Source: Candidatus Melainabacteria bacterium (GTDB lineage: Bacteria; Cyanobacteriota; Vampirovibrionia; 2-02-FULL-35-15). From it: a stretch of DNA of 46,051 nt. A program made the position numbers and the translations under genes. Positions within the stretch are counted from its first letter, which is position 1, and each line of letters starts with the position of its first letter. This document shows, one piece after another, positions 79 through 14,780 of the stretch. The notes under the pieces are model-generated. The model searched no databases. It was given only the letters and a program-made list of their open reading frames with translations, and was not told the DNA's origin. The stretch is taken from the NCBI GenBank assembly GCA_016201905.1, contig JACQBQ010000058.1:1-46051 (forward strand). Direction: 5' to 3'.

Positions 79-350
79 CGCAAGCACTTCAGTGCGAGCG
101 TGTTCCAAAGCCCCCAACTTTTAGTTGAGGGTTGTTTACTTCTTAAATCTATAGAATTACTATTATTAGATGCCGCCTCACAGCTCCATTCAATAGCTTC
201 ATTTTCACTCCCTTTAAATTTTCCTTTTAGCCAATAGAATTCAAATCTTTTCAAGGTGTCTAACTTTTGGAGAAAATAATTCTTATCATATGTAGGTAAG
301 ATATAAATTTTTTGACCTAAAGTTTTTAAACTATTTATAAATACTCTCAT
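75..350 (-). CDS. Doubtful 91-residue hypothetical protein
   Basis: An open frame starts at ATG 350 with an AGGAA about five bases upstream, which slightly favours translation. The N-terminal 65 residues are Lys/Phe/Tyr-rich with no recognised motif. The last 20 residues are encoded by the hairpin repeat at 79-131, and the stop overlaps the end of the opposite-strand gene. The C-terminus therefore probably reads into repeat DNA, and the frame may be a remnant or chance. No function is proposed. Confidence 0.25.
   Translation of the reverse strand: MRVFINSLKTLGQKIYILPTYDKNYFLQKLDTLKRFEFYWLKGKFKGSENEAIEWSCEAASNNSNSIDLRSKQPSTKSWGLWNTLALKCLR
79..131 (+). repeat. Half copy of the intergenic hairpin repeat plus a stem-loop
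   Basis: GCACT/AGTGC forms a small hairpin, followed by GAGCGTGTTCCAAAGCC, which resembles the 3' part of the complete repeats at 13813 and 14649 (GAGCGGCGAACTTCCAACCC). The 5' half is missing, since the upstream gene ends at 78. At 111-131 CCCCCAAC and GTTGAGGG pair over a TTTTA loop with one mismatch. The stem could stop transcription of the upstream gene, but no clear T-run follows. Confidence 0.4.
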
Positions 351-424
351 TATTTCCTAAATCACTTATGTAAGTATTTTACTAATAAAATCTAAATTTC
401 TAAAAAGTCGTAGACAGTCTAGAC

Positions 425-471
425 CAAATTAAGAAAAACTAGGCGGGAAACCTTGTTCACTAGGACTCCAC
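425..471 (+). repeat. Intergenic hairpin repeat, copy A (minimal form)
   Basis: AATTAAGAAAAACTAGGC leads into GGGAAACCTTGT, two loop bases, then ACTAGGACTCC. The arms pair with the same interrupted pattern as the longer copies, but there is no inserted top. The 5' AAGCARC box is not recognisable. It sits in the 351-546 gap before the methyltransferase gene, which otherwise shows only AT-rich DNA. Confidence 0.6.
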
Positions 472-546
472 AGTTAATACAGTTATTAAATCAGCTTATA
501 ACTTAAGTTTTTGTAATTTATTCAAGTGATATTATAAAAGTCAATT

Positions 547-1368
547 ATGAAAGCTGATGTAGTTTCAATGGGAATACCTCAGATTGGACTTGGAAAAGTT
601 AGAGAACATTCTTGTCTTGCAAAAAAAGAATTCCCAGAAATAGAAGTAAGTCCTAAACTGATCGAATATCAGGGACGCACATTTCGTGTTCTTAAATCAA
701 GTGACCAGATAGGTTTCAAGGGAGACATCACATATGTAAAAAGAAAGCTAAATCAATTATTTTCACAATACTGTCTTAAGAAAAAGAGTGCTGTGCTTGA
801 TGCCTTTGCTGGATACGGTATCACAACATATGATTGGCTATTAAGTGGTGGAAGAGTTGCGGCAGTTGAGAAAAATAAAAATGTACATGCTTGCCTTACA
901 GAAAACCTAAAAGATTTTCCTGCTGATCAGCTGAAAGTACAACATGCGGATAATGTGAAAGTGATGGAACAACTCCAAGCTTCAGGTGCAAAATTCGATA
1001 CAATCGATCTTGATCCATTTGGCAATGCTTACCAACAATTTAAACTATCTTTGAAATTGCTTGATAAAGGATTTATATGGCTGACCAGTGGTGAACACAT
1101 TAATATGAGAAGAAATTGGAATAGAGATGTGCTTATTTCTCGTTATGGGGAAGAAGTTGTCAAATGTTATGAGGACAAATCAACAATTCCTGAATTTCCA
1201 AAAATAATAGAAAAACACATGAAGTCTGTCAGAAGTGATATCCAGCTTGTAACACACGTCATGAGTCATGCTTGTGCACGAATGTTATTTGCAATTGGTG
1301 CAGCTGTTCCTAGGTCCTTAAAAAGAGAATTCAGTAAGATACCAAGGTACTACGGGTATCTAGCTTAA
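547..1368 (+). CDS. Trm1-like class I SAM-dependent methyltransferase
   Basis: The 273-residue protein has a class I methyltransferase fold: motif I VLDAFAGYGI at residues 83-92, an acidic residue for SAM ribose binding in AAVEKN (E108), and the catalytic motif DLDPFG at 154-159. DPFG is the signature of the Trm1 family, which makes N2,N2-dimethylguanosine at position 26 of tRNA. The protein is clearly shorter than archaeal and eukaryotic Trm1 (about 380 residues or more), and the usual Cys-rich C-terminal part is not visible, so tRNA may not be the substrate. The ATG at 547 follows an AT-rich stretch with no convincing Shine-Dalgarno site. The gene stands alone between repeat copies A and B. 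The methyltransferase fold is certain; the Trm1-like label is moderate. Confidence 0.7.
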   Translation: MKADVVSMGIPQIGLGKVREHSCLAKKEFPEIEVSPKLIEYQGRTFRVLKSSDQIGFKGDITYVKRKLNQLFSQYCLKKKSAVLDAFAGYGITTYDWLLSGGRVAAVEKNKNVHACLTENLKDFPADQLKVQHADNVKVMEQLQASGAKFDTIDLDPFGNAYQQFKLSLKLLDKGFIWLTSGEHINMRRNWNRDVLISRYGEEVVKCYEDKSTIPEFPKIIEKHMKSVRSDIQLVTHVMSHACARMLFAIGAAVPRSLKREFSKIPRYYGYLA

Positions 1369-1416
1369 TTACCCCAGTTGAGAAAAAGGTCAAAATATAC
1401 GTTCTAGAGGCATACA

Positions 1417-1524
1417 TTAAGCAGTCCTCTTATAAAAATCAAGATTTATAAGGTAGGAAACCTTGTCCCCGCTCTGACTCGCATCGAGCGAGGCGAACAC
1501 TTTGTGAGCGGCACTAGGTCTCCA
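1417..1524 (+). repeat. Intergenic hairpin repeat, copy B (extended form)
   Basis: The 5' box TTAAGCAG is followed by CAAGATTTATAAGGTAGG and the stem AACCTTGTCCCCGCTC, which pairs with GAGCGGCACTAGGTC. The top carries two extra hairpins, CTCGC/GCGAG and CAC/GTG, giving a three-way junction. It lies downstream of the methyltransferase gene in the same orientation as the other copies. Confidence 0.75.
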
Positions 1525-1591
1525 AATCATTAAAAAATGTATTATTAATGTATAAATTCATAAGGAAATCCTGACTCTTAACCATTGCTTA

Positions 1592-1625
1592 TATCAATAT
1601 TGATATATATCAAATATGATATAAT
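1592..1625 (+). promoter_or_regulatory. Tandem operators and -10 box of the HigBA-type operon
   Basis: TATCA-ATAT-TGATA at 1592-1605 (inside a 16-bp perfect palindrome) and TATCA-AATA-TGATA at 1608-1621 are two inverted repeats with identical arms and spacer length, 16 bp centre to centre. A TATAAT box at 1620-1625 overlaps the second, and the toxin ATG is at 1632, so the transcript may be leaderless. This is the layout expected for autorepression by a helix-turn-helix antitoxin. Confidence 0.6.
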
Positions 1626-1631
1626 GCATCT

Positions 1632-1985
1632 ATGTCGTGGAATATAGAAATGTATGAAACGGAAGGAGGTAGAAAACCTGTAGAAGAATTCTTAATGGCA
1701 TTACCAAAAAATCATGAGACCAAAGCTAACATTTTAATACAAAGATTGTCTCAAGAAGGAAATATGTTTAGGTTTCCATTCACTAAAACTATATCTGGGA
1801 AATTAAAAGAATTAAGGATTCAAGCATCACCAAATATCTACAGAATCTTTTACTTTGCTCATATTGATAAAAAGTTTGTTCTATTACATGGATTTACCAA
1901 GAAGACAGAACAAACACCAAGAAAAGAAATAAGAATTGCTGAAAATAGGATGAGTGAATATATAAGGAGATACAAAAATGGCTAA
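1632..1985 (+). CDS. higB: HigB/RelE-family toxin (Gp49-like)
   Basis: The 117-residue protein has the layout of the Gp49/HigB branch of the RelE superfamily: an N-terminal YETEGGRKPVEEFL segment, a central GKLKELRIQASPNIYRIFY core and FVLLHGFTKKTEQTPRKEI near the C-terminus. These toxins are ribosome-dependent mRNA interferases. Family-typical features visible are the basic KELR and RIFY strands and the HGFTKK strand. The gene precedes its antitoxin and overlaps it by 8 bp, the inverted toxin-first order typical of HigBA. Regulation is probably through the two inverted repeats at 1592-1621. Family assignment is firm; activity is inferred. Confidence 0.85.
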   Translation: MSWNIEMYETEGGRKPVEEFLMALPKNHETKANILIQRLSQEGNMFRFPFTKTISGKLKELRIQASPNIYRIFYFAHIDKKFVLLHGFTKKTEQTPRKEIRIAENRMSEYIRRYKNG

Positions 1986-2295
1986 AAGAAAAAAAACAAA
2001 CTATGAGATATATTTTGAGAAACAAATGAAGGATCCAGAATTTAAGAGATTATATGGAGAAGAAGAAGCTAAGTTCTCTGTTTCTCAAAAGATAAAGCAT
2101 CTTAGAGAAAAACTCGGTATAACTCAACAACATCTAGCTAAGCTTACGCATACTTCACAAGCTGCAATTGCAAGAATAGAAAGTGCAGACTATGAAGGTC
2201 ATTCACTTTCTAAACTCTATGAGATTTCTGAAGCATTAGGTGCAAAATTAGTAATTGATTTTATTCCTATAAAAAATATAAGGAAATCAGCTTGA
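1978..2295 (+). CDS. higA: HigA-like XRE-family antitoxin
   Basis: The 105-residue protein has an XRE-type helix-turn-helix at about residues 38-85 (KIKHLREKLGITQQHLAK, then TSQAAIARIES as recognition helix), followed by a short C-terminal strand ALGAKLVIDFIPI. The Lys-rich N-terminal 35 residues probably wrap the toxin. It overlaps the toxin gene by 8 bp, so the two are translationally coupled. It should neutralise the toxin and repress the operon by binding the paired operators upstream. Repeat copy C begins six bases after its stop. Confidence 0.85.
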   Translation: MAKRKKTNYEIYFEKQMKDPEFKRLYGEEEAKFSVSQKIKHLREKLGITQQHLAKLTHTSQAAIARIESADYEGHSLSKLYEISEALGAKLVIDFIPIKNIRKSA

Positions 2296-2300
2296 TTTTC

Positions 2301-2370
2301 AAGTAACCTTCAAATCCAGGTTAAGGTTTATAAGGTGGGAAACCTTGAATCGAATGTAAGTCCAGATTTT
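2301..2370 (+). repeat. Intergenic hairpin repeat, copy C (3' arm decayed)
   Basis: It starts with AAGTAACCTT, which pairs perfectly (AACCTT/AAGGTT) with the following GGTTAAGGTTTATAAGG, then GGGAAACCTTG. The 3' arm is degenerate (GTAAGTCCAGATTTT). The distance from the 5' box to GGGAAACC matches the other copies (36-38 bases). It directly follows the antitoxin gene. Confidence 0.6.
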
Positions 2371-2473
2371 GTACCATCTTGGATAAGTTTAAATGGTTTA
2401 GCCAGTTCTACAAAGAGTTTGCGGTCTTTTAAATAAAAGTGGGAAACTCATTAATCAGAAAGGATACTAAGAT

Positions 2474-3610
2474 TTAACTTAATTCTTTAATTAATGATTT
2501 GAGATCAATGAATTGTACTTTTAGGTTTCCAAATTTCCTGGATAAGTTCATATCAATATCACTTGCTACCAAGTAATTATCTCCACTTGGATACTGCCTT
2601 CTAAAAGCTTCTAATCCTGAAGGATTAAAGTGATCGCTTCTCCATTTACATTCAATAGCAATTGGCTCTTTCCCTCTCTTCTTTAAGATGAAGTCTACCT
2701 CATGTCCTCTCTTATCTCTCCAATAATTTATTTGTTTTGTTTGCAAATTTGCTTGGATCTCATTTAAAACAAAATGCTCCCAAAGGTAACCCAAATCTTC
2801 ATTTCGAAGTTTTTCCCAGCCTTTGTAATAGCATATAAATCCAGTATCAAAAGCATAGACCTTTGGTGCAGAAACTATTTCAGTTGGTTTGTAGGTGCTG
2901 AAAGGCTTAATTATATGAAATACAAAAGTTGATTCTAAAATTCTTAAATAATTATTTATTGTTTGCCTACTAACCTCACAAGGTTTTGCAAATTTAGACG
3001 CTTCAAATATTCCACTACTTTGATTAAGTACAAGATCAAAAAACTTTTGAAATGAATCTTTTCTTTCTAATCTAAAAAGTTCTTGAATATCTTTAGCCCA
3101 GTAATCATCCATCCACTCCTGGAAATACCTTTCAGGAATTTTCTCTGACATAAAAAACGGTGGTAAACCGCCCATAAAAAGGCGATGTTCCAGATCTTTG
3201 TTTCTAAAATCCAATAGGTCATTAGTGATCATCGGTGTTAACCATAACTGTATTTTTCTTCCTGTCAAAGTATCTTTAAATTTCTTTGAAGCAGTAATCG
3301 TTGATGATCCGGTTGCAATTATTTTTATACTGCCAAAATGATCAGTTGCAATTTTTAACAGTTCTGATGGATTGTCAAGTCTATGAACTTCATCTAAAAT
3401 AATTCTTTTACCTTTCAATTTTTCTAAGAATTCTTCTGGCTCACTCATTAGTTTTCGTGTTTTAGGTAATTCACAATCAAAGTATTCCACTTTTTCTAAA
3501 GATTGACAAAGATATGTTTTTCCTACTCTTCTAACGCCAGTTAACCAAATCAAAGTTCTTTCTTTCCACAAGTCATTTATTTGGTTTATCCAGAAATTCC
3601 TTTTAGCCAT
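2474..3610 (-). CDS. AAA_14 ATPase with DUF4143-like C-terminal domain
   Basis: The 378-residue protein has a Walker A GVRRVGKT (residues 25-32), Walker B RIILDEVHRL with D73/E74, and a sensor-like ATGSS, followed by a winged-helix-like segment and a C-terminal region with EVDFILKKRGKEPIAIECKW (about 304-325). The D...ExK arrangement in that segment is reminiscent of a PD-(D/E)XK nuclease fold. This AAA_14 plus DUF4143 architecture is common in bacteria and archaea, often next to mobile DNA, and its substrate is unknown. ATG 3610 (MAKRNFW) is preferred; an upstream ATG at 3628 adds MLLSLH. No good Shine-Dalgarno site precedes either. The gene is alone between repeat copies C and D, opposite to the repeats. 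Confidence 0.85.
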   Translation of the reverse strand: MAKRNFWINQINDLWKERTLIWLTGVRRVGKTYLCQSLEKVEYFDCELPKTRKLMSEPEEFLEKLKGKRIILDEVHRLDNPSELLKIATDHFGSIKIIATGSSTITASKKFKDTLTGRKIQLWLTPMITNDLLDFRNKDLEHRLFMGGLPPFFMSEKIPERYFQEWMDDYWAKDIQELFRLERKDSFQKFFDLVLNQSSGIFEASKFAKPCEVSRQTINNYLRILESTFVFHIIKPFSTYKPTEIVSAPKVYAFDTGFICYYKGWEKLRNEDLGYLWEHFVLNEIQANLQTKQINYWRDKRGHEVDFILKKRGKEPIAIECKWRSDHFNPSGLEAFRRQYPSGDNYLVASDIDMNLSRKFGNLKVQFIDLKSLIKELS

Positions 3611-3676
3611 ATGTAATGATAATAGCATATAGTGCTACTAAACGCAACTATAGTATCAATTGGTACGTTATATCTT

Positions 3677-3798
3677 AAGCTGCTTTCAGTGGTATATTAA
3701 GGTTCACAAGATGGGAAACCTTGCCCCCGCCCCTTTTTGGGGCAAGGCTTGCCTCACTCACAAAGTGAGTGGGCGGCACGAGGCCTCCAGATTCTTTT
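3677..3798 (+). repeat. Intergenic hairpin repeat, copy D (extended form)
   Basis: AAGCTGCTTT opens the copy; TTAAGGTTCACAAGATG leads to GGGAAACCTTGCCCCCGCCC, which pairs imperfectly with GGGCGGCACGAGGCCTCC. Inserted hairpins include CCCC/GGGG and CACTCAC/GTGAGTG. The gap 3629-4032 otherwise contains only AT-rich DNA and a -10-like TATAAT at about 4013 ahead of the hydrolase gene. Confidence 0.75.
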
Positions 3799-4032
3799 TT
3801 ACGCAATACACAAATTTTCGATAAACAAAATCTACGCTGTGTTTATAAATTACTTTTCTTATTTAAGAGTGAGTTAAACCTAATCTTTCAAAATAAAAAA
3901 TGTGGCAGATGCCGAAAATCTAAAGTATTTACAGAGTTAATTTTATTCTGGTAATTCACATAAAACTGGTGGGGAAAAAATTTTAACGCTGTGGTGATTA
4001 AACTATTACTGTATAATTTATATAACCTATAA

Positions 4033-5334
4033 ATGACAGTAAAAATTAGCAACAATCCTTTTTTGCCAATAGGAGTACCCTATGTTACTCAGGCAGGCCT
4101 CTTTGCTGGTAGAAGTACTATTAAACATATTACAAGATTCCTGGGAGAGCACAGTTCGGTCACGCCTGTAGTAAATCCAATGATATTATTTGCCAGGAAT
4201 ATGCTAGCAGCTAAAGATTGGTTTTCAAGAAAAATTGATTCTGTTAGAAGAGGAATAGCAAAATCTAGGCTCAGAGTTGTTGCAAAAGAACTTGAATCAA
4301 AGAAAGAAATTAGTGATAAAAGAGCTTGGGTTAAAGGATTTTGTTCTTTGAAAGATTCTTCTGATTTATCTTTGTTTGTTGAAAGATATATTTTAAATCT
4401 TCTGGATAAAAAAGTGTCCGGATTTTCCCCACGGGTATTTGGAACTACCTTAAATGATAGATTGTCAGACATTGTTACTGAATACCAAGAAAATTTATTA
4501 GATGAACTTGGTAGTACAGGATTAACTTCTGGTCATATACAAAGAGGAAAAATTGCTAATAGGGTTTTTGATTTGCTTACGCCAAGAGTTGCTGTTCTTG
4601 GAGGTCACAGTCAGGGAGGATTAACAGCTTTACAGTCTTTGCAGGAAAAAAATAATGATATTTCAATTGTTCTTGGCTGGGGCATGCCAACAAATGGGGT
4701 AAATCCAGAAAGAATTCCTGCACCGTGGCTACTTAAAAGAGTATCTCCAATGGTGGGTGAATTAACAGCTGGAAGTTCTGAACTTATAAAAGCCAAAACA
4801 ACACCTTGTCCTATTGATACGACTATAATTGCTATAGACTCAAAGGACAGAAAAGATGATGTAATTCTTCCTAATAGTCTCTCCTCCGATATATCAAACG
4901 CTCATCATGTAGAGGTAGGTCCGAAAAAGGCTAAAGCTACAAATGTTTTAGGTGGCCTGCAGACTCCCATAGGATATCTATTGGATCATCCACCATGGTT
5001 CCTTAGGACAAGAGCAGAAAGAAATTTGTATCATTTTTCATATCTGGATGAAAGGCATGTCCCGTACTTCTTCTCAGAGGAAAAAGGCAGTTTAGTTTTT
5101 GAGTTTGGTATAGGGCAGAACGCAGTGGAAAATACCCGACAGCTTTTACACCCCTCTAATAATGGACTTTTACAGTCAAATTATTTGCAATGGCTCTTAG
5201 AAAAAATTAAATCCAAAGAACTTAATTTTGATCTTTCTGATATAAAGTCAGAACTGGAAGAACTACAGAAATTATCCATGCCATTTCGGGGTAGTGAATA
5301 TGAACTTGCTCAAGAAGTGTCTAATTTAATATGA
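4033..5334 (+). CDS. Alpha/beta-hydrolase, lipase-like protein
   Basis: The 433-residue protein has a nucleophile elbow LGGHSQGGLTAL with the candidate nucleophile S193, preceded by the hydrophobic strand PRVAVLGG, as in lipases and other alpha/beta hydrolases. The catalytic Asp and His cannot be fixed; the later IIAIDSKDRKDD and DERHVPYF segments hold candidates. The first 160 residues are basic and helical without recognised motifs. No clear signal peptide is seen. ATG 4033 lies a few bases after TATAT/TATAAC boxes, so the mRNA may be short-leadered. The gene stands alone between repeat copies D and E. The fold is likely; the substrate is unknown. Confidence 0.65.
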   Translation: MTVKISNNPFLPIGVPYVTQAGLFAGRSTIKHITRFLGEHSSVTPVVNPMILFARNMLAAKDWFSRKIDSVRRGIAKSRLRVVAKELESKKEISDKRAWVKGFCSLKDSSDLSLFVERYILNLLDKKVSGFSPRVFGTTLNDRLSDIVTEYQENLLDELGSTGLTSGHIQRGKIANRVFDLLTPRVAVLGGHSQGGLTALQSLQEKNNDISIVLGWGMPTNGVNPERIPAPWLLKRVSPMVGELTAGSSELIKAKTTPCPIDTTIIAIDSKDRKDDVILPNSLSSDISNAHHVEVGPKKAKATNVLGGLQTPIGYLLDHPPWFLRTRAERNLYHFSYLDERHVPYFFSEEKGSLVFEFGIGQNAVENTRQLLHPSNNGLLQSNYLQWLLEKIKSKELNFDLSDIKSELEELQKLSMPFRGSEYELAQEVSNLI

Positions 5335-5347
5335 TTATTTAAGTATT

Positions 5348-5400
5348 AAGCAGCCTGTGAACCTAGATTAAGATTTACAAAGTGGAAACCAGGCCTCCAC
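5348..5400 (+). repeat. Intergenic hairpin repeat, copy E (minimal form)
   Basis: AAGCAGCCTG is followed by GATTAAGATTTACAAA and the hairpin GTGGAAACC-A-GGCCTCCAC at 5382-5400. The arms pair, with A·C mismatches at the same place as in longer copies. No extra hairpin is inserted. It lies between the ends of the hydrolase gene and the convergent toxin gene. Confidence 0.7.
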
Positions 5401-5419
5401 CAAGTTTAATAAGTTCGCA

Positions 5420-5707
5420 TTATTTATAAACACTCTTACTACCAGAATGTCTACCAATATCTAAAAGTAAAATTACTAACTTATTTTCAATTTGCATCCA
5501 AATAATTCTTATATCACCAGTCACAAATGAGCTATAAATCTCTCCATATTGAGATAAGAAAACTTTATGAGTTTTCAAGGACTTATATTTAGGATTTGAT
5601 CTTAATAGTTCAAGCGTTTTTTCAACTGCACTCTGTAATTTCTTATTTTTTCCGGTGAGTTTCTTATACTTCTTTCTAAAGTTACTTGTAGTCTGTAATT
5701 CATACAT
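5420..5707 (-). CDS. RelE/YafQ-family mRNA interferase toxin
   Basis: The 95-residue protein matches the compact RelE/YafQ/ParE toxin fold: FRKKYKKLTGKNKKLQ helix, SNPKYKSLKTHKV loop, GEIYSSFVTGDIRIIW central strands and a C-terminal LLLDIGRHSGSK strand with His, close to the YafQ catalytic region (DIGTHSDLF-like). YafQ toxins cut mRNA on the ribosome. The gene follows its antitoxin with a 4-bp gap, in the usual antitoxin-first order. It would be regulated by the antitoxin at the operator at 6010-6037. Assignment to the superfamily is strong; the exact subfamily is an inference. Confidence 0.8.
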   Translation of the reverse strand: MYELQTTSNFRKKYKKLTGKNKKLQSAVEKTLELLRSNPKYKSLKTHKVFLSQYGEIYSSFVTGDIRIIWMQIENKLVILLLDIGRHSGSKSVYK

Positions 5708-5711
5708 AATA

Positions 5712-6005
5712 TTAGTCTTCTATTAACTGATTATGTAAGGATTTAGAAAAATTAAGCTTTCTGGTTTTTCCTTCTTTGTATTCTACAAGTCCTTCAGCAA
5801 TTATTTGTTTTAAGTTATCAACATTAGAATTTTCAAAACCCAATTTACTTACAAAGGATATAACCAAATTATTGTTTACAAAATTAGTTAGTAAAAGTCT
5901 CACTATCTCATTAACTGAGCTAAACCCGACTTCTTTAGCCTTTTTCTTAAGTTTATTATTTAGCTCTTCAGAAATAGGGACCTGTAATTTTAATTGATAA
6001 GTCAT
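5712..6005 (-). CDS. RelB/DinJ-like ribbon-helix-helix antitoxin
   Basis: The 97-residue protein opens with a short strand and helices (LKLQVPISEELNNKLKKKA, then GFSSVNEIVRLLLTNFV), the pattern of ribbon-helix-helix DNA-binding antitoxins. The remaining charged tail (EGLVEYKEGKTRKLNF) probably covers the toxin. AGAGAGG lies nine bases before the ATG. The promoter region carries three direct repeats spaced 11 bp, which suits cooperative binding by ribbon-helix-helix dimers. It is the first gene of the operon with the RelE/YafQ-like toxin. Confidence 0.75.
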   Translation of the reverse strand: MTYQLKLQVPISEELNNKLKKKAKEVGFSSVNEIVRLLLTNFVNNNLVISFVSKLGFENSNVDNLKQIIAEGLVEYKEGKTRKLNFSKSLHNQLIED

Positions 6006-6009
6006 AAAC

Positions 6010-6037
6010 TATACCTCTCTTATACCATGATTATACC
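6010..6037 (-). promoter_or_regulatory. Three 11-bp-spaced direct repeats upstream of the antitoxin operon
   Basis: TATACC occurs at 6010, 6021 and 6032 on the + strand (GGTATA on the coding strand), exactly one DNA turn apart. The array includes -10-like TATAAT/TATAAG sequences on the - strand and sits just before the Shine-Dalgarno site of the antitoxin. It is a good candidate operator for autoregulation by the ribbon-helix-helix protein. Confidence 0.55.
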
Positions 6038-6078
6038 TTAATAGGAGTATATCTAATCAAGGTACAATTAGAATAATT

Positions 6079-6155
6079 AAGCAACTTTTAATAAAGGGTT
6101 AAGATTCACTAGGTGAGAAACCTTGTCCCCGCGCTGAAAGGGCACTAGGTCTCCA
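6079..6155 (+). repeat. Intergenic hairpin repeat, copy F (near consensus)
   Basis: The box AAGCAACTTTTAA pairs with the later TTAAGATT to form hairpin 1. Hairpin 2 is GAGAAACCTTGTCCCC with GGGCACTAGGTCTCC over a short loop. The copy lies upstream of the RelE/DinJ-like operon and just after the end of the HEAT-like gene. Confidence 0.75.
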
Positions 6156-6167
6156 ATAGGTTTAAGA

Positions 6168-7058
6168 CTACACTTGTAAGTCTTTTAAAGCGTAAGCTCC
6201 TTGTTGTTTACATAGATTATAGCTCTGAGTATCCTGTGAATAAAGTATTAGTTCTCCTGAAGCTATGTTAGACAATAAATTTCTTATTAACTTAGTTCCA
6301 TACTTTTTAATGTAATAAGTTACAACGGTCTTTGCTTCTGCTTTTTGTATTAAATCGCTCTCAAGATCAGATTGAATCCCCATGTGGATAAATTCAATGG
6401 CTTCTTTTATCATTTGATCGATTGTGATACTGAAGGGTATTGTATCTAATTTGCTTTCTAATGCATGCAGTATTGTAGAATCTTTATGATGATACTGTAG
6501 TGCACTAATAACAAATTTTTGAACTCCCTCGCTCTCATCATTTAAGCATTTTATTAGAGCAGGATTTACAGGACCATCAAGTGTCCTCATGACTAATGTA
6601 TAAAAAGCAGCTGCCCTAATTTGAGGATTATTGTTATTAAGTAAGTTTAGTAATTTTGTTGTAAGTTTGGATTCATAAGATTTATCTATTTCATTTTGAT
6701 GAAATACAATCTTGCTTGTTAATTGCATATCCATAAAGTAAGTCAGGCAACAAATTGCTTGGGATCTAAGTTCTGCATCAAATTCAGATTCATCAAATGC
6801 AATCTTATTTAACACTTCAAATAGTTCATTTTCTTTATTAGCTTTTTTATATTTGTCCACAAGTTCGCATCTTAGCTCGTATTGCTTTAATTTGTCATCT
6901 AATGGAGATTTCTCATTGCTACTTTTAGATTTAATAACTTCTCTTAATTGGTTAATTACTTGATCTTTTGCAGATGCATGATAATTTTCATCTGATGCCC
7001 TTACAGGTGTACCAAATAAACCAACTATTTTTTTAAATCCACTTATTATAATTGACAT
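6168..7058 (-). CDS. HEAT-like repeat protein of unknown function
   Basis: The 296-residue protein is helical and contains HEAT/armadillo-like pairs, clearest around residues 140-200 (NPQIRAAAFYTLVMRT, then SEGVQKFVISALQYHH). HEAT repeats form protein-binding solenoids, and the partner is unknown. There is no signal peptide or catalytic motif. A strong AGAAGGAGATT Shine-Dalgarno site precedes ATG 7058. It lies alone between repeat copies F and G. The HEAT call is by pattern only. Confidence 0.55.
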   Translation of the reverse strand: MSIIISGFKKIVGLFGTPVRASDENYHASAKDQVINQLREVIKSKSSNEKSPLDDKLKQYELRCELVDKYKKANKENELFEVLNKIAFDESEFDAELRSQAICCLTYFMDMQLTSKIVFHQNEIDKSYESKLTTKLLNLLNNNNPQIRAAAFYTLVMRTLDGPVNPALIKCLNDESEGVQKFVISALQYHHKDSTILHALESKLDTIPFSITIDQMIKEAIEFIHMGIQSDLESDLIQKAEAKTVVTYYIKKYGTKLIRNLLSNIASGELILYSQDTQSYNLCKQQGAYALKDLQV

Positions 7059-7176
7059 AACTAATCTCCTTCTAAAAAATTTAAATTAATTAATGGTCCT
7101 AATATTTTACTATAAAGTAGCTTGAAACTAAGCAATAAAGATTTTGAATCAAACTCTTAATCCGGTATATACTTTC

Positions 7177-7270
7177 AAGCAGCTTTTGCTAGAAAATTTG
7201 GATTTACTAGGTGAGAAATATTATTCCTGCCTTGGCAGGTCCGCCTCGGCAGAAACCAGGTCTCCAGATT
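7177..7270 (+). repeat. Intergenic hairpin repeat, copy G (diverged)
   Basis: AAGCAGCTTTTGC is followed by GGATTTACTAGGTGAGAAA, an inserted hairpin CCTGCC-TT-GGCAGG, and the 3' arm ACCAGGTCTCCAGATTTTT. The 5' arm has changed (AAATATTATT instead of AAACCTTGTC), so hairpin 2 is weaker. It separates the HEAT-like gene from the peptidase operon. Confidence 0.65.
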
Positions 7271-7371: not shown

Positions 7372-9063
7372 TTAAATCTGAAACTTATTATCCTTTATTA
7401 AAACTTTTCTATCAGAACCGTTTACCTTTTCAGCAAATACCATTACATTTGGTCCACCAATCATAAAGTCAATGTGTACAGGAGAATTGTTGCAACTTAG
7501 ATTTCTCATATATATTTCTCTCTCATCATGATTAGCTATATCGTTTGTACCCTCAATACAATCAGAGTAAGAGTTTCCAAGAGCAAAATGACATGTGGCA
7601 TTTTCATCTAGCAATATACTATTAAATATCTTGCCCAAATCAAATATTGGAGAACCTGCTACCACAGCAATTTCTCCTAACTTATCTGCATTTTCATTTT
7701 TTTCTAACCACTCCAGGAGGACATCTGGATTTTTTGTAGCATTTGCTTTTATAAGCTTACCTTCATTAAATTCCATTTGAATACCATCAACAATAGAACC
7801 ATTTAAACTAACGGGTCTTGTCATGCTTACTGTGCCTTTAGTCTTTGTCCAATCTGGAGTTGTAAAACATTCTTCAGTTGGTATATTTGGAATATAAACT
7901 TGTCCACTGGGTGTTATTGCAGTTCCTGAAATAAAAATAGATTTTGGTGTCAAACCAACTCTTAAATCAGTTTTCCCATCTGGAGTCTCTGTATTTGGTC
8001 TAACACTTAAGAAGTGCAAAATATTGTAACCCTGTTTTACTACAGCATTAAGTTTCTCCTCTGTTTTTTTTAGATTTGCAATATGTTCAGTTAACTTACC
8101 TACGCGAGTTATTTTTCTTGCTTCAATAGCAGCATCTTTTAAACTAGCGTAACCTGCAGCACCTGCTGAAGCTGTAGTTGGTAAATAATAAATGCACCAA
8201 GGATTTTCTATTGTAAGGCGATCCTCATAGGGTTTAGTTTTTTTAAGTATACCTGTCTGTGCAAGTTGAATCTTTGCAGGATCAATATTTTCATATTTAC
8301 TTGGGTCTGTGCCCTCTAAATATAAACTGGCTGTGCCCTTTTCAAGAAACTCTTTAGATCGTGCTACCACAGATTCTGGCACCTCACTTAAAATGGACTT
8401 GCTTGCATATTTGTAAAATGGAATAGCTAAATCAAACTCTTTTTTTTCATTAATACTAATATCAATTAATTTAGTACCATTTTGATAAGCCCATTCTGCT
8501 AATTGAAGCATTTGTGGCAAGTGCTCTCTTGAACCTAAAATTGCTAGAGGCTGTCCCCTTCTTAAATTTAAACAACCACTTAGAATTTCTTCTGGATTAA
8601 TTGCAAGTTCTTTTTGCACATCATCAGGAATAAAGTCAGATATACTTTTGATTAGATCTTTTTCGTCTTGTGCAGAAAGACCTGCTTCACTATACAGAGA
8701 TGTGGTTTTATCAAAAGTAATAAAAGCTGCCCCTTGTTGTTTAAGTTCTAACTCTTTTTGTTCTTTATAGTCAAAATCTTCTCTAATACCATACCTTGCT
8801 TTTAAATCTTCTAATGCTTGCTCTTTTAAGCTAACCGAAACTAGTCCAGCGTTAAAATCCCTGTATGCTATCTCAACTGTCTTATAAACAAATGGAAGAT
8901 GATCACTGTAAGCTGTGATTTTTAGTTTTTGGTTAGGTCTTAATGCTTGTCCGCTATTAACTTGAGAAAGAAGGTTTGCAATGTAAACATTAAGATCTTT
9001 TTGTTGTTCTAGGAATAACATTCCCGGATTCAGGTTTGATGCAATAAGGGGTTTAACTTGCAT
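7372..9063 (-). CDS. M29-family metallo-aminopeptidase
   Basis: The 563-residue protein contains the metal-site motifs of M29 aminopeptidases (AmpS/aminopeptidase T): NIPTEECFTTP (E397/E398), LGEIAVV (Glu near 464), ENATCHFALGNSY (H492 and the following Tyr), and VHIDFMIGG (H530, D532). All expected ligands are present, so a di-metal peptidase trimming N-terminal residues of cytosolic peptides is likely. The N-terminal 270 residues are longer than usual and only loosely match the family; bacterial M29 enzymes are typically 370-410 residues. An AAAGGA lies seven bases before the ATG. The gene is the last of a three-gene set with GH130 and a second M29 paralogue. Confidence 0.8.
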   Translation of the reverse strand: MQVKPLIASNLNPGMLFLEQQKDLNVYIANLLSQVNSGQALRPNQKLKITAYSDHLPFVYKTVEIAYRDFNAGLVSVSLKEQALEDLKARYGIREDFDYKEQKELELKQQGAAFITFDKTTSLYSEAGLSAQDEKDLIKSISDFIPDDVQKELAINPEEILSGCLNLRRGQPLAILGSREHLPQMLQLAEWAYQNGTKLIDISINEKKEFDLAIPFYKYASKSILSEVPESVVARSKEFLEKGTASLYLEGTDPSKYENIDPAKIQLAQTGILKKTKPYEDRLTIENPWCIYYLPTTASAGAAGYASLKDAAIEARKITRVGKLTEHIANLKKTEEKLNAVVKQGYNILHFLSVRPNTETPDGKTDLRVGLTPKSIFISGTAITPSGQVYIPNIPTEECFTTPDWTKTKGTVSMTRPVSLNGSIVDGIQMEFNEGKLIKANATKNPDVLLEWLEKNENADKLGEIAVVAGSPIFDLGKIFNSILLDENATCHFALGNSYSDCIEGTNDIANHDEREIYMRNLSCNNSPVHIDFMIGGPNVMVFAEKVNGSDRKVLIKDNKFQI

Positions 9064-9223
9064 ATAGTCCTTTAATTAATTAAGGTTTTAATTGGATTAT
9101 TCAAAATTGTAAGTTATAAAGTAACACTTGTCAAATTAAAAACAGGTTATTAAACAGGGGCATTGTGATTCAAGCCCGAAACATAAATAGATACTTTATA
9201 ATTCTTAACTTTAGTTCTAACAC

Positions 9224-10342
9224 TTATTCTTGTTTTGTAGTCTCAGTCTCTATAAAATTACCATCTTTGTCAAATTGACTAAGATAATTTAAAGCATCGT
9301 TCAATCTAAATTTTGCAACACCAACATATTTATCAGCTGCTCCATAATATACATAAACTATTGGATTAGCAGGCTCTGTGTAATCTTGCTTTAAAACCAC
9401 GCCTTGTGGAAATACTACATTTTCAACCAGTCCTGCAACTTCAAACTCTAGTGTTGGTTCTAAAATAGGAAATGGTGAACGGGAAATAACTTTCCATGGT
9501 TCATGTGCATCAAGGAGAGCCATACCACCTCTATAAATTCCAAGATCGTCAACTGCATGGTAAATAAATAATCCTCCCTTAGGAGTTTTAATAGGTGGGG
9601 CACCACCACCAAGTTTTCCACCTTCCCATGTTTTTGGTATTGTTCTAAGAATTGTTTTACTGTCTAGATTTGTTGTTGAAGTTATTTTGCCCTTTGCATC
9701 AACTGGAATTTCTTGTTTCCAAAATGCTTCTCCAGCGTTACCTAGCAGCTCTTCAATACTATCAACTAGCACATATTGAATATTTCCTGTTTCACTTGCC
9801 CTATGATAAAGCATAAGTTTTGGCTTTTCATTGATATAGATTGGCTCCGGGTGGAAGAAGGCATCTTTATCATCGAAATCTCTTGGACCGATTATTCCTT
9901 TATAGTCAAACTCTTCAAAGTTCTTTGTAAGCGTTAAAGTAATTTGAGGTGTTTTACCATCATAAGCAGTTGCAACAAGGTAATTCAACCTTCCGATTAG
10001 AGTAACCCTTGCATCTTCGTAGCCATATGTAAAACGATCATTGGGAGATAAAGCATCGATTGTTCTTAAGTCTTTAATAAAAAGTCCATCTTTAACTTCA
10101 GCGAGGCAAACATAAGAAACAAATTTGCTATCTGGATATTTCTCGCCAAAAGTAATCCGAGGGAAGAGAAGAAATCTATTATTTCTATGGATTGTTGCCC
10201 CAGGATTGTAAGCTCCGTCTGGGTTTATTCCAATATTATTAGGCCTTAAAAGTGGAGCTATTTGCTTGTGGATTTTAAATCTATTTATTCTTGCATCAGC
10301 AAAATTAGTTATTTTACTTGATATTAAGTTACTTATTCCCAC
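9224..10342 (-). CDS. GH130 glycoside phosphorylase (mannoside phosphorylase-like)
   Basis: The 372-residue protein has GH130 features: GYEDARVT (residues 107-114, with the conserved ED), FHPEPIYIN, GGGAPPIKTPKGGLFIYHAV, VVFPQGVV and a final YYGAADKYVGVA. GH130 enzymes reversibly phosphorolyse beta-mannosides (4-O-beta-mannosyl-glucose, mannooligosaccharides, or mannosyl-N-acetylglucosamine); the exact substrate cannot be read. The start is GTG 10342, overlapping the end of the upstream peptidase gene by 10 bp, with GGAG at 10350-10353 seven bases upstream. This indicates translational coupling. It has no signal peptide and is presumably cytosolic. Confidence 0.85.
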   Translation of the reverse strand: MGISNLISSKITNFADARINRFKIHKQIAPLLRPNNIGINPDGAYNPGATIHRNNRFLLFPRITFGEKYPDSKFVSYVCLAEVKDGLFIKDLRTIDALSPNDRFTYGYEDARVTLIGRLNYLVATAYDGKTPQITLTLTKNFEEFDYKGIIGPRDFDDKDAFFHPEPIYINEKPKLMLYHRASETGNIQYVLVDSIEELLGNAGEAFWKQEIPVDAKGKITSTTNLDSKTILRTIPKTWEGGKLGGGAPPIKTPKGGLFIYHAVDDLGIYRGGMALLDAHEPWKVISRSPFPILEPTLEFEVAGLVENVVFPQGVVLKQDYTEPANPIVYVYYGAADKYVGVAKFRLNDALNYLSQFDKDGNFIETETTKQE

Positions 10343-12027
10343 TTAATATCTCCATATTTCTTCCAGTTAAATGTACTATCTAAATTTAGAAAATCTTCAG
10401 TAAACTCTCCTTCTCTACGAATTATTACTGGCTCTTTAGAATTATCTTGTAAACCAGAAATTGTAACTCCTGCGCCAGGACCAGATTTAAGCGACATATC
10501 AACATGAAGATCACATTTATTTTTTCCACCTGTTACTGTGTATCCATCTCCACAAGCAAAGTGTACATCCTGCTTTTCTGCAATTAATGTGTTGTGAACG
10601 ATTCTTCCATTCAAAAGTTCTGTAATCATTCTATTAAATCCAATTGCAAATTCACCAAGGCGATCAAAGTTTTCAATTTTTAAGCCTGACTTTGGACCTC
10701 TTCCTAAAATACGACCTTCAAGGTGTTCTTTATCCCCAGATTCAAGATCTAAATCAATTATTTGTCCACCTTTAAAGACTAAAGTTAGTCCATTGAATTC
10801 TTTATTATCAAGAACAAATGGCAAATCAAAATAAATCTTACCTTCAACACTATCTTCGACTGGTGATGTAAATATTTCAGCAGGAAGAGCATTTCCCGTA
10901 ATTGTTGAAGGACATACATAACGACTTTCTTTAGCTCCAGGCTCTCTTATTGAAAGGGTTACATTGGTTTTCCCATCTTCTCTTTCTACTTTTATTGTAT
11001 GAAATTTCCGTAATTGTTTTGCATAGTGATCAACAAGTAACATCATCTCTCGGTAAAAGTTGATTGGATCTGTTTCATCAAGATGTGTAATTTTCTTATA
11101 AAACTCACCAAAATCATCTAATCCTTTTTCATCAGAAGTGAATCCCATCTCAGAAGCAAGATCAAAAGAAGGAGAAAGCCCAAGGGTTCTAAAAAACTTT
11201 CCAGGTGGCAGTGCTCCCCATTCAACACGTGACATTCTTTCCATATAAGGACTGGAAGATTTTGAAGCAGCTTTTATAAAGAGTGTTTTTCTTCTTTCGT
11301 ATTCAGCATCACTAATATTAGATGGAGATATCTCAATCCTTGCGTAAGTATCCTTAGAAGTATTATAAATATCAAAGAATTTTTGCATTGTTTGAAATAA
11401 CATCAGTGTGTCTGGCTTTACAAAACTCAGTTGCTCATCACTGGCTGCATTAACACAAGTGTGGTGTTTTCCTTGAGCATTTGAGCCCATTACATAGGGA
11501 ATGCCTTGATTTTCAACTATACGTTTTACTATTTCTTCTACAAGTCTATCTGAGTCAGAAGTAACAACATAAAGCTGGACACTTTCATTAGCTTTTGCAT
11601 TACGTCCAAGCAAGCTGTTAAGTTTCTTATCATCTTCTGCAAAATCAAACCACTTGTTTAGGCTTGCAGATTTTGAAACACTACTATCTCGCATCCAGAC
11701 TATATGTTTGTATTCTTTTCCCAGCCAGCCATTTAATGCTTTATAGTCTCTTTTAAGTTTTCTTGTTTTATTTGTCTGAATAATTTTTTCTACTTCTTCT
11801 GGTCTTACGACAAGATTTACTTTGTAACCTCTCTTTAGTAAGGTGTCAAAAACATCAAGTGCATTTTGAGAAACATTGAGGTTAGAAACCCGTACAGGAC
11901 ATAACTCACCAGGATTAATCCCACCGACTGAAACTCGTGTCATCAACTCAGCACAAGACTCATACGGAAAGGTTTTTGCTGCTTGATTCCAAGCTATAAT
12001 GCTATTCGTTGTACTGCCAATTTTCAT
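10333..12027 (-). CDS. Second M29-like aminopeptidase paralogue
   Basis: The protein is about 564 residues from ATG 12027 (MKIGSTTNS). A TTG at 12096 would add 23 hydrophobic/basic residues but has less support. The C-terminal half has the M29 ligand pattern: PAEIFTSP (Glu near 384), LGEFAIG, QDVHFACGDGY (His near 488) and DLHVDMSL (His/Asp near 510). As in the peptidase at 7372-9063, the N-terminal 250 residues are extended. The two proteins look like paralogues of the same long subtype. The gene overlaps the GH130 gene by 10 bp. Peptidase family is well supported; specificity is unknown. Confidence 0.75.
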   Translation of the reverse strand: MKIGSTTNSIIAWNQAAKTFPYESCAELMTRVSVGGINPGELCPVRVSNLNVSQNALDVFDTLLKRGYKVNLVVRPEEVEKIIQTNKTRKLKRDYKALNGWLGKEYKHIVWMRDSSVSKSASLNKWFDFAEDDKKLNSLLGRNAKANESVQLYVVTSDSDRLVEEIVKRIVENQGIPYVMGSNAQGKHHTCVNAASDEQLSFVKPDTLMLFQTMQKFFDIYNTSKDTYARIEISPSNISDAEYERRKTLFIKAASKSSSPYMERMSRVEWGALPPGKFFRTLGLSPSFDLASEMGFTSDEKGLDDFGEFYKKITHLDETDPINFYREMMLLVDHYAKQLRKFHTIKVEREDGKTNVTLSIREPGAKESRYVCPSTITGNALPAEIFTSPVEDSVEGKIYFDLPFVLDNKEFNGLTLVFKGGQIIDLDLESGDKEHLEGRILGRGPKSGLKIENFDRLGEFAIGFNRMITELLNGRIVHNTLIAEKQDVHFACGDGYTVTGGKNKCDLHVDMSLKSGPGAGVTISGLQDNSKEPVIIRREGEFTEDFLNLDSTFNWKKYGDIKWE

Positions 12028-12230
12028 TGTTATATTCTTTATTATTTCAGAAAAACTAAGTCTTATTAATTTAACTTTAAATTGAGTAGATGTCAATTAA
12101 ATTTCAAATGTTACTGCCTAGGTTTTAACTAAAAAATGATAAAAGTATGCTTTTTAGAAAAGATTAAAAATATTTTAACTTCAGGGGTTAGAAAATTCTT
12201 GTTTGTACTCTTTGTCCTACCTGTTTTGTC

Positions 12231-12329
12231 AAACAACTTTCAAGTCTAGGTTAAGATTTACAAGATGGAAAGCATAGTTTCCGCTTGGGATTAGCCAGCT
12301 TTGGTGGGGAACTAGTCCTCCAGGTTTTT
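12231..12329 (+). repeat. Intergenic hairpin repeat, copy H (covarying stem)
   Basis: AAACAACTTTC, then AGGTTAAGATTTACAAGATG, then stem arm GGAAAGCATAGTTTCC pairing with GGGGAACTAGTCCTCC through a bulged A. Compared with the consensus (CCTTGTCCCC/GGCACTAGG), both arms changed together, which supports a conserved stem. It fills most of the 12097-12394 gap; the rest shows only AT-rich DNA. Confidence 0.7.
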
Positions 12330-12394
12330 ATAACACTAGCATGCTTTACAAAAAGTGTAAAAATGTGCCTGGGTTTGCAAAGATAAATTAGATT

Positions 12395-13057: not shown

Positions 13058-13200
13058 GGTTACTAATTCTTTGTTAGATAAATATCTTATATTAAGTTAT
13101 TAGTTTATGAGTTAAGGTTAATCGATTTATTTTAAGTTAGTTTTGTATAGTAGAAATTAGTTTTAGGTGGTTTGAGCCTGGTTTAATTTGTACTTCAATG

Positions 13201-13237
13201 TATAATATAAAAACTAATAAAAATATCTTATAAGGAG
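13201..13237 (+). promoter_or_regulatory. -10 box and Shine-Dalgarno site of the 13246 gene
   Basis: TATAAT at 13201-13206 is followed 25 bases later by AAGGAG at 13232-13237, nine bases before ATG 13246. No clear -35 is visible at 16-18 bp. The Shine-Dalgarno match fixes the start of the orphan gene. Confidence 0.5.
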
Positions 13238-13245
13238 AATTTAAA

Positions 13246-13797
13246 ATGACAACAATACCTAGTGGACCAAGTACTAACAAGCCAGCTATAAGACCTGTTC
13301 CTTGTGAGCAATTACCAGCATATTCTAGGAATTCAGATATTAAATATACTTTAAAAATGCCAGGACTAGATATTGCGTTTCTTCTTGAACCATATAATGG
13401 AGGCTACTATAGTTCTACAGAACTAAAAGAATTTACACTAAATTATGCTCCTTCTAGGTTTTGGACTGGATCACTTATTAGACGAGCACTTGGTACACAA
13501 GGGCTTAGTTATACTTCAGAAGATATTAGATCTTTTTCTAGTAGCTATCTGCTTGGTGTTGACAGTATGTTTGAGGTTTATCTACGACACCCAAAAGATA
13601 CTGATAGGACATTAGATGACGGTCCACTTATGATGATCAATAGAGATAATGGAAGCGTTTGTTTTTATCCCTCTGGGTATAATGTAGATTCATTAGCTAT
13701 AAGAACCATTGCAAAAAATATTTTGACAGATATTCAACAATCCGTAGGTAAGAAGTTTAATGGTAAATGGGAGAAGGTTTGTAACTCAAGCTCTTAA
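13246..13797 (+). CDS. Hypothetical protein, 183 residues
   Basis: The protein starts with a Pro/Ser/Thr/Asn-rich, probably disordered stretch of about 25 residues (TTIPSGPSTNKPAIRPVP), followed by a globular alpha/beta region rich in Tyr and Phe (NGGYYSSTELKEF, SFSSSYLLGVDSMFEVYL). There is no signal peptide or recognised motif. A strong AAGGAG supports ATG 13246. Similar hydrophilic N-termini occur on orphans at 15487, 31484 and 38122. Function is unknown. Confidence 0.6.
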   Translation: MTTIPSGPSTNKPAIRPVPCEQLPAYSRNSDIKYTLKMPGLDIAFLLEPYNGGYYSSTELKEFTLNYAPSRFWTGSLIRRALGTQGLSYTSEDIRSFSSSYLLGVDSMFEVYLRHPKDTDRTLDDGPLMMINRDNGSVCFYPSGYNVDSLAIRTIAKNILTDIQQSVGKKFNGKWEKVCNSSS

Positions 13798-13812
13798 TAA
13801 AATCTAGTTCTC

Positions 13813-13943
13813 AAGCCACCTTTCTAAAAATATAAGGTTTCTTATTGCAGGTACAAGTTCCCGCTCAGCCCTTGAAAAGAGCTGAGCGGGGCTCGCTCAA
13901 GCCTTGCTTGAGCGGCGAACTTCCAACCCTACAGGGAGTTTTT
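13813..13943 (+). repeat. Intergenic hairpin repeat, copy I (I/J subtype)
   Basis: The copy has AAGCCACCTTTCTAAAAATA, then a stem ACAAGTTCCCGCTC paired with GAGCGGCGAACTT, and two inner hairpins, GCTCAGC/GCTGAGC and GCTCAAG/CTTGAGC. Its core 13852-13930 differs from copy J (14688-14766) at one position in 79. With J it flanks the nucleotidyltransferase pair as direct repeats. Confidence 0.8.
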
Positions 13944-14122
13944 CAAAATCCTTCTTCTCTTAGTTTTTGTGCGATTTTCTTATTTTCAGGCGGCATTGCT
14001 GCGTTGAGGAATTGATTCATCTCGTTCAGATATTCTAATTTTTTTTCTGGCGACAAATCAATGTAACGTTTTAGGTCTTCATCATTTATATATTCGTCTT
14101 TAATTTTATTTTTATCTTTCAT
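13943..14122 (-). CDS. Small 59-residue partner of the nucleotidyltransferase
   Basis: The reading frame ATG 14122 to TGA 13943-13945 encodes a charged helical protein (MKDKNKIKDEYINDEDLKRY, then LSPEKKLEYLNEMNQF and NKKIAQKLREEGF). It overlaps the end of the nucleotidyltransferase gene by 11 bp in another frame (GATGAAAGATAA), so translation is coupled. Small acidic/basic proteins of this look, with an S/PPEEKL.WL.E.N.F core ending in KKI..KLR, are often found next to stand-alone nucleotidyltransferase genes (from memory, not searched). The pair may work together, possibly as a toxin-antitoxin-like unit; this is inference. Confidence 0.7.
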   Translation of the reverse strand: MKDKNKIKDEYINDEDLKRYIDLSPEKKLEYLNEMNQFLNAAMPPENKKIAQKLREEGF

Positions 14123-14609
14123 CTTTGAGCTCCATTATTCTAGTCAAAACATTTATATCTAACTCATCAATTTTTCTTCCAGCTTCCTTCTTTAATTTTA
14201 TAAGATCTGATATGGAAATGGTTGGTATTTCTACTTCCTGAACTCTATATACCACTTTTCTTTTATAAATCTCACTGAAATTTAAACTATACACAAGCAA
14301 TACATCTATATGTTCAAGTTCATTCTTAGGGTTATACACAGAAAATACTTTCATATTCTTTTCTTCTATCCATTTTTTTCTATTCTCTTTACTAATAAAA
14401 TCTTCTAATTCAACTGGCACTTTTGGTTTATAATTTAAAGACTTAATTACTTTTACAAATCTTGCAATGTTTTCTTCACTAAGTAGAATCACTATGTCTA
14501 GATCATTAGTTATTCTGGAGTACCCATGTAAATTAACTGCTAGCCCACCAACTACTAAATATTCAAAATGTTCATCTTGAAGTTTTTTTAAAATTTCTTT
14601 GTAAAGCAT
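14112..14609 (-). CDS. Stand-alone nucleotidyltransferase (DNA polymerase beta superfamily)
   Basis: The 165-residue protein has the minimal nucleotidyltransferase signature VVGGLAVNLHGYSRITNDLDIVI: GG at 21-22, then D36 and D38 as metal-binding residues, and a third acidic residue probably in EHIDVLL. The C-terminus ends in GRKIDELDINVL, typical of this DUF6036/AbiEii-like group. Members may act as antitoxin- or toxin-like nucleotidyltransferases or tRNA/protein-modifying enzymes; the target is unknown. No Shine-Dalgarno site precedes ATG 14609, but a TATACC lies a few bases upstream, so it may be leaderless. It forms a coupled pair with the 59-residue gene and is flanked by near-identical repeats I and J. 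Confidence 0.8.
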   Translation of the reverse strand: MLYKEILKKLQDEHFEYLVVGGLAVNLHGYSRITNDLDIVILLSEENIARFVKVIKSLNYKPKVPVELEDFISKENRKKWIEEKNMKVFSVYNPKNELEHIDVLLVYSLNFSEIYKRKVVYRVQEVEIPTISISDLIKLKKEAGRKIDELDINVLTRIMELKDER

Positions 14610-14648
14610 AGTGGTATATCTTTTATTATTCTATCTAACATTCTAACT

Positions 14649-14780
14649 AAGCAACTTTCCTAAAAATAGGAGGTTTCTCATTGCAGATACAAGTTCCCGC
14701 TCAGCCCTTGAAAAGAGCTGAGCGAGGCTCGCTCAAGCCTTGCTTGAGCGGCGAACTTCCAACCCTAGGAGGAGTTTTTA
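14649..14780 (+). repeat. Intergenic hairpin repeat, copy J (I/J subtype)
   Basis: AAGCAACTTTCCT pairs with AGGAGGTTT over AAAAAT to form hairpin 1. Hairpin 2 is AAGTTCCCGCTC with GAGCGGCGAACTT and carries the same two inner hairpins as copy I. It ends in CCTAGGAGGAGTTTTT. A 66-residue frame running through it is a shadow. Confidence 0.8.

Follow-up and report, generated by a model that had tools for sequence, protein, structure and literature searches.

The window and its repeat

The window analysed here, a stretch of 46,051 nucleotides, is an entire contig (C7) of a 2.28-Mb, 59-contig genome of a Candidatus Melainabacteria bacterium. Copies of a repeat lie between the genes of its first part, each composed of a box (TTAAGCARCYTT), a middle stretch, an arm starting with GTGGGAAAC, a variable top and an end reading ACTAGGTCTCCA. 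Based on comparisons with related genomes, we consider this repeat very probably to be the recombination joint of an integron-like array of gene cassettes anchored at the gene for transfer-messenger RNA (tmRNA). The sample included one genome per species and comprised 11 genomes of the family, namely our own (G000) and ten relatives. The features of the region, named according to the proposed reading, are as follows, with the basis of each call in brackets; R1 is a covariance model of the repeat made from 11 copies.

407..470, +: joint site B, full, with a short top (R1)
547..1368, +: cassette gene, methyltransferase-like (Pfam Cons_hypoth95/TRM)
1416..1524, +: joint site C, with a long top (R1)
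1632..2295, +: cassette genes for a Gp49/HigB-like toxin and a helix-turn-helix (HTH) antitoxin (Pfam; 87% identical unit in the G003 array)
2298..2364, +: joint site D, consisting of a left half (R1, sequence)
2474..3628, -: cassette gene, AAA_14/DUF4143 ATPase (Pfam)
3674..3789, +: joint site E, with a long palindromic top (R1, folding)
4033..5334, +: cassette gene, 433 aa, without a Pfam match
5345..5399, +: joint site F, with no top (R1)
5420..6005, -: cassette genes for a YafQ-like toxin and a small open reading frame (ORF) without a Pfam match (92.8% identical unit in the G009 array)
6076..6155, +: joint site G (R1)
6168..7058, -: cassette gene, HEAT-repeat protein (Pfam)
7174..7266, +: joint site H (R1)
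7372..12096, -: unit of three genes encoding two M29-like peptidases and a GH130-like protein; no other unit of the window is as large
12228..12322, +: joint site I, with a long top (R1)
12395-13057 (-) and 13246-13797 (+): two ORFs without a Pfam match; L071 of G003 contains a relative of the first at 41% identity
13811..13945, +: J1, a related or different repeat with a box and a large palindrome (missed by R1)
14112..14609, -: gene between J1 and J2, with nucleotidyltransferase matches below Pfam cut-offs
14647..14780, +: J2, second copy of J1 (missed by R1)
14786..14811, +: 26-nt copy, with 5 mismatches, of a terminator-like sequence located 3' of the tmRNA gene on contig C30; possibly the right edge of the array

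R1 matched eight places in the window (at 407, 1416, 2298, 3674, 5345, 6076, 7174 and 12228, together spanning 407-12322), all on the + strand and with E-values of 2.4e-7 to 6.3e-16 that are only roughly calibrated. Seven of these copies belonged to the training set, and the copy at 2298 was out-of-sample. The model also recovered the repeat in all ten relatives, none of which had been used to make it. The original prediction had described a structured family of at least ten copies (A-J), running in one direction between genes that face both ways and with no named family known for this layout. The existence of the family is borne out by these matches, and its single direction is seen in the eight window copies and in long arrays of two relatives (14 of 14 sites on the + strand in G003 and 15 of 15 on the - strand in G009, at E<0.05). 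Gene coordinates confirmed that the flanking genes point both ways, and Rfam gave no match at gathering score over the window and none at E<=1 over 1-15000. R1 bears out eight of the listed copies; it did not find the one near 79 or either J copy (13811 and 14647) at E<=1, a threshold at which no window copy was found past 12.3 kb. J1 and J2 form a 131-nt repeat (13813-13943 and 14649-14779, 92% mutual identity) that, as judged by eye, has the box alone in common with the rest of the family; they enclose the weakly nucleotidyltransferase-like gene.

Over our own genome, R1 identified 21 places at E<=1, including three on contig C30 and four on C11, and at the beginning of C11 the right half of a repeat was recognised by eye. 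Contig C30 at one end and C11 at both terminate in insertion-sequence ends lying within the variable top of a repeat copy, so the array probably runs on across contig breaks. This insertion sequence, with the end TGTGTCAACTTAAGG, is represented by nine end copies (G000 contigs C30, C11, C35, C20, C8 and C6; L229-L236). Three of seven junctions were read by eye inside repeat tops and the other four beside other GC-rich, palindrome-like stretches.

Gene units shared between genera

Comparison of the genomes demonstrated, at the sequence level, shared units with defined boundaries, the occurrence of the same units behind the tmRNA gene and behind repeats, and a higher similarity of units than of the chromosomes that carry them. 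Units at 81-94% identity are common to different genera, where they have different neighbours. The YafQ unit of the window (5388-6121) recurs at 92.8% identity in G009, 85.0% in G007 and 81.1% in G008, the Gp49/HigB unit at 87.4% in G003 and, in part, at 92.3% in G007, and units of C30 and C11 at 86.8-94.0% in G003, G007 and G009. For two genome pairs, alignable DNA upstream of the tmRNA gene served as the chromosomal comparison. Between our own genome and G007, four units are 85.0-92.9% identical, as against 75.7, 70.6 and 72.9% for the upstream blocks and 75.4% for the tmRNA block; between our own genome and G003, three units are 87.4-91.9% identical, as against 70.3 and 72.3% upstream and 82.6% for the tmRNA block.

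The homology of these units ends at the arms of the repeat. Where the same unit follows another upstream neighbour, the bases directly before CTCCA differ in several pairs; this change with the neighbour indicates that nearly the whole site is part of the upstream unit and that crossover takes place at CTCCA. The repeat is not a free-standing RNA or repetitive extragenic palindromic (REP) element but forms, in every copy, the joint at the 3' end of a gene unit. The description as a structured repeat family had missed this role, although the repeat is indeed one-directional and family-wide. A set of 89 ORFs from arrays and their immediate surroundings, in which some units recur from several genomes, includes ten matches to Fic; others match ParE, Gp49/HigB, BrnT, YafQ, DUF4143 and trypsin-like families, among the 25 of 87 matched families that were listed. 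In the arrays of our own genome, 7 of the 21 scanned genes run along the site direction and 14 opposite to it, so most of them should need promoters of their own, in contrast to the genes of the standard mobile integron.

A second covariance model, made from 69 hits, was used with stricter filters to search 382 genomes of the class, 31 of which were listed by handle. Sites were found in all 11 family genomes and in none of the 371 others, so the proposed check, a model followed by a scan of relatives, succeeded. R1 itself matched weakly in 2 of 49 more distant genomes (G013, E 1.4e-5; G021, E 0.0013). The weak site of G013, a member of another family, lies at 2359-2418 of L188 behind an ORF judged Fic-like by eye, and it is followed by CTCCACCATTTTTTT, identical to the letters that end the G013 tmRNA. 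An exact site pattern was found in nine stretches of genome contigs, eight of them from Candidatus Melainabacteria and the ninth from a contig assigned to Blastocatellia (L199, JAHFUF010000372.1). Five of the seven listed ORFs of the latter start with the same residues as those of Melainabacteria contig L078, and its assignment is probably a binning error. Viral contigs gave no match to the exact site pattern, and plasmids none to the single cassette queried. The hosts are uncultured bacteria of one family of Melainabacteria, a non-photosynthetic cyanobacterial group according to the excerpted text of PMC5877343.

The tmRNA gene as a proposed platform

A tmRNA gene (RF00023) heads the array on C30 of our own genome and in G003 and G007, with scores of 68-72 bits against a gathering score of 47; ARAGORN made no call for this gene. 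In these three aligned cases the RF00023 match extends to CTCCA, and the gene is kept whole. The nearest same-strand sites downstream are located at 1.2 kb (own C30), 2.9 kb (G003) and 5.0 kb (G007), and the nearest sites of two further genomes at 2.6 kb (G001) and 3.2 kb (G002, with weaker matches alongside).

The search identified tmRNA above cut-off in 8 of the 11 family genomes, and in all eight, conservation of the gene extends as far as CTCCA, with different letters from there on. In seven of the eight, the 90 nt following this CTCCA resemble the 90 nt following the CTCCA of a site, with scores of 56-161 against null maxima of 29-36; the eighth, G001, gave a borderline score (29 versus a null of 27). 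A score of 56 was reached by none of the 557 controls, which comprised 3 outgroup tmRNA flanks, 300 random windows and 254 further CTCCA occurrences. The best matches correspond to five different units: the tmRNA flanks of our own genome, G007 and G009 all match a single Fic unit in the G007 array, and those of G002, G003, G005 and G006 each match another unit. This Fic unit contains the terminator-like sequence found behind the tmRNA of our own genome, G007 and G009, as would be expected if it had once been excised from behind tmRNA. We also considered the downstream flank of the window's array as the ancestral tmRNA flank and rejected the idea; its one support was the terminator-like copy at 14786..14811, and the proteins encoded at 14911-28409 had no match at E<=1e-8 in the 22 stretches covered.

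Several observations weigh against a tmRNA-anchored cassette array. No tmRNA was found above cut-off in G004, G008 and G010, and physical linkage of tmRNA and a site is seen in only five of the eight genomes with tmRNA: in G005 and G009 the contig stops 1.3 and 3.3 kb past the gene with no site before its end, and in G006 no site lies within the 6.8 kb read behind it. The matches of our own genome, G007 and G009 are not independent, and part of the seven of eight could represent an inherited flank that was later captured. The lack of a match for the 14911-28409 proteins near tmRNA extends over the 22 stretches searched (E<=1e-8). Some sites are located away from tmRNA, a few of them solitary, and the window unit at 7372..12096 holds three genes in 4.7 kb. 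None of the Phage_integrase matches of the 11 genomes lies within an array. With one genome per species, the comparison revealed no circular cassette and no close strain with an unoccupied tmRNA site.

Sequence motifs around the crossover were tested on 49 sites. Of 83 sites located, 56 passed a script filter for both arms, 50 had an acceptable right arm and 49 had enough flank; the 27 dropped at the two-arm filter include real ones with a very short middle or only one half (for example window 5345, L176 and L180), and the tests thus exclude such sites. To the left of the crossover, GTGGGAAAC and AACTAGGTCTCCA are able to pair, with recurring mismatches, around tops of up to ~50 nt. When a structure-fitted alignment was used, 78.2% of core-stem cells were paired, compared with 27.5-41.4% in slid controls. 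Double changes affect 6 pairs, where shuffles gave 2.7 and 3 of 500 came as high, but they amount to only 9 of 577 cells; the covariation anticipated in the original prediction exceeds shuffles on this alignment but is weak. As single-stranded DNA the compact site is no better than shuffles, 129 of 200 of which fold at least as well, whereas 11 of 16 long tops beat nearly all shuffles (2 of 5 in the window itself). By eye, we took the tops for inserted ready-made palindromes, so their pairing tells little about the core, and pairing at hairpin tips was rejected as proof of structure on the same ground. Pairing above slid controls, the 11 of 16 tops and the confinement of nearly all conserved sequence to one side of the crossover speak for a folded site; the weak covariation and the instability of the compact site speak against it.

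To the right of CTCCA conservation is weak, with T rare at +1 and T at +6 to +8. CCA, the tail of tmRNA, opens 8 of 49 units (0.33 expected), these eight showing about three kinds of start, and TT occupies +6,+7 in 29 of 49 (7.5 expected), although most units have only CTCCA in common with tmRNA. The outgroup tmRNAs have CTCCACCATTT in two of three cases. Together with the CCA starts and the TT at +6,+7, this suggests that a duplex core may correspond to the tmRNA end with CCA and a T-run.

Proposed mechanism, rival explanations and known systems

In the proposed mechanism, a cassette would usually comprise one gene or gene pair with one 3' copy of the site, starting just past the CTCCA of the preceding joint and ending in its own ACTAGGTCTCCA. 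The tmRNA 3' end (CGCCTCCA) would serve as the platform, in the role of attI, and would be recombined at the same CTCCA, where the repeat and the tmRNA end would exchange units. Cassettes would stack behind tmRNA in one direction whatever the orientation of their genes, and would be excised as circles by a trans-acting recombinase, most probably of the tyrosine family. The site may act folded on one strand, like attC, or as a duplex core (CTCCA and the weak T-rich right side) with accessory boxes to the left. The host may benefit from a stock of toxin-antitoxin, Fic and other small accessory genes. The system works like an integron, and the tests made place it outside the integron family. That it is an independently evolved integron, with a tmRNA landing site, a recombinase other than IntI, a near restriction to one Melainabacteria family and recent use between genera, we rate as an even proposition.

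The TIGR02249 model of integron integrases, scanned over our own genome, gave a best score of 64.7 bits against a cut-off of 265, at the chromosomal Xer-like gene; the ten relatives were covered by their Phage_integrase matches, without a TIGR02249 scan, and these are of the same few lengths. By length, the tyrosine recombinases comprise an Xer-like group, two shorter groups and a group of 367-393 aa, in addition to partial genes. Two shorter paralogues (L013 and L014, on C23 and C32) show no recognisable catalytic residues by eye, and the relatives have Phage_integrase matches of similar length. The 367-393 aa group is represented by three genes of our own genome, on C12, C32 and C48, two of which combine a Phage_integrase match with an HTH_17-like stretch below the Pfam cut-off. 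Members of this group are present in 10 of the 11 family genomes, but so they are in 14 of 49 more distant genomes; on that distribution, and with its absence from G004, we kept it as a candidate and rejected it as the recombinase of the arrays. A tyrosine recombinase gene in L083 (C12, 7089-8134) has a second copy (86%) of its 71-nt 3' end at a distance of 975 bp, and an ORF separates the two; lone 3'-end fragments of this gene family are also present in G006 and G010. Elsewhere in the window, a 56-bp direct repeat (89%, 45806-45963) lies in a low-complexity Glu-/Pro-rich ORF (45626-45994).

A special form of the preferred reading, which does not exclude it, would have integrase-less mini-islands accrete in tandem at tmRNA. 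A phage-type tyrosine integrase would act in trans on a duplex att core of CTCCA, CCA and a T-run, with the left boxes as arm-type sites, and the system would be integron-like in working and descended from a tmRNA-targeting island. We give this form a little less than an even chance. The CCA starts, the excess of TT at +6,+7 and the CTCCACCATTT of outgroup tmRNAs are consistent with it, as are the 367-393 aa recombinases of the family, two of ours with their HTH_17-like stretch, and the standing of tmRNA 3' ends as standard island targets, as given in the available part of PMC4383910. However, the core that most units share with tmRNA is CTCCA only, the recombinase family extends to 14 of 49 distant genomes whereas R1 sites extend to just two, and no array unit carries an integrase. 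A genuine integron array whose integrase has been lost (a cluster of attC sites lacking integron-integrases, CALIN), with the repeats as divergent attC, would show the same layout of cassettes with one site each, one direction, variable tops and toxin-antitoxin content; we nevertheless regard it as improbable. The R boxes of attC read RYYYAAC and GTTRRRY. GTTRRRY across the crossover end was present in 0 of 49 sites (with 0 of 49 also at a background place, hence no excess) and RYYYAAC upstream in 1 of 49, and on this test the attC interpretation was rejected. The integrase scan of our own genome, the uniform lengths of the relatives' Phage_integrase matches, a platform that is tmRNA instead of attI beside intI, and the poor folding of the compact site also argue against it.

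Two further explanations appear very improbable, and to a similar degree. Single-strand transposition of the IS200/IS605 type by a Y1 transposase, with the repeat as the right end, would account for the short motif that borders the joint on its 3' side, and one Y1 transposase does lie ~1.2 kb from a site in G005; but Y1_Tnp had no match in G000, G001, G003, G004 and G008, five of the 11 genomes and all with sites, a distribution on which we rejected it, and the 5' end of the units shows no conserved element except the weak bases at +1 and +6 to +8. An ordinary intergenic repeat inserted between genes (REP, miniature inverted-repeat transposable element or structured RNA) would fit the palindromic tops, which by eye look like other palindromes of the genome, and the few solitary copies. 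It does not fit whole units that lie behind different joints and the tmRNA end with breaks at CTCCA, nor long one-directional arrays without an Rfam match.

If the proposed reading is true, the meaning of the repeat is larger than originally thought: it would be the joint of swappable gene units behind the tmRNA gene, and the integron way of storing genes would have arisen more than once. The system would link cassette capture to tmRNA islands as its possible starting point, would represent a class of arrays that attC-based searches should miss, and is a target for a recombination assay. To our knowledge, such cassette capture has been described only for IntI and attC. No tmRNA-anchored cassette array was found in the literature searched, which included the accessible portions of PMC8946536 and PMC9668308.

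Among known systems, the ends of IS200/IS605 elements and REP sequences with their RAYT transposases are likewise short, one-directional and provided with hairpin-like tops, and differ from our case in that five site-bearing genomes lack Y1 and the units have no strong second end. Tycheposons are tRNA-anchored elements of marine picocyanobacteria, larger and with a recombinase of their own; a tRNA-type anchor and the exchange of cargo are shared, whereas the arrays described here contain no Phage_integrase match. Closer are the islands at tmRNA (ssrA), which also target the 3' end of the gene and leave it whole; tyrosine integrases at tRNA and tmRNA targets are the subject of Islander (PMC4383910, in the part available). 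Unlike such islands, the units here are small, lack an integrase, stand many in a row and each carry a complex site, and the piece in common with tmRNA, possibly a displaced 3' fragment, is only CTCCA in most units, with CCA kept in 8 of 49. With integrons, the arrays share small mobile units with one 3' site each, lined up in a single direction from a fixed platform, as well as exchange between genera, toxin-antitoxin genes and a variable site top. They differ from integrons in lacking attC R boxes and, in our own genome, an integrase over cut-off, and in having the tmRNA 3' end as platform, a crossover at CTCCA and 14 of 21 genes set against the site direction.

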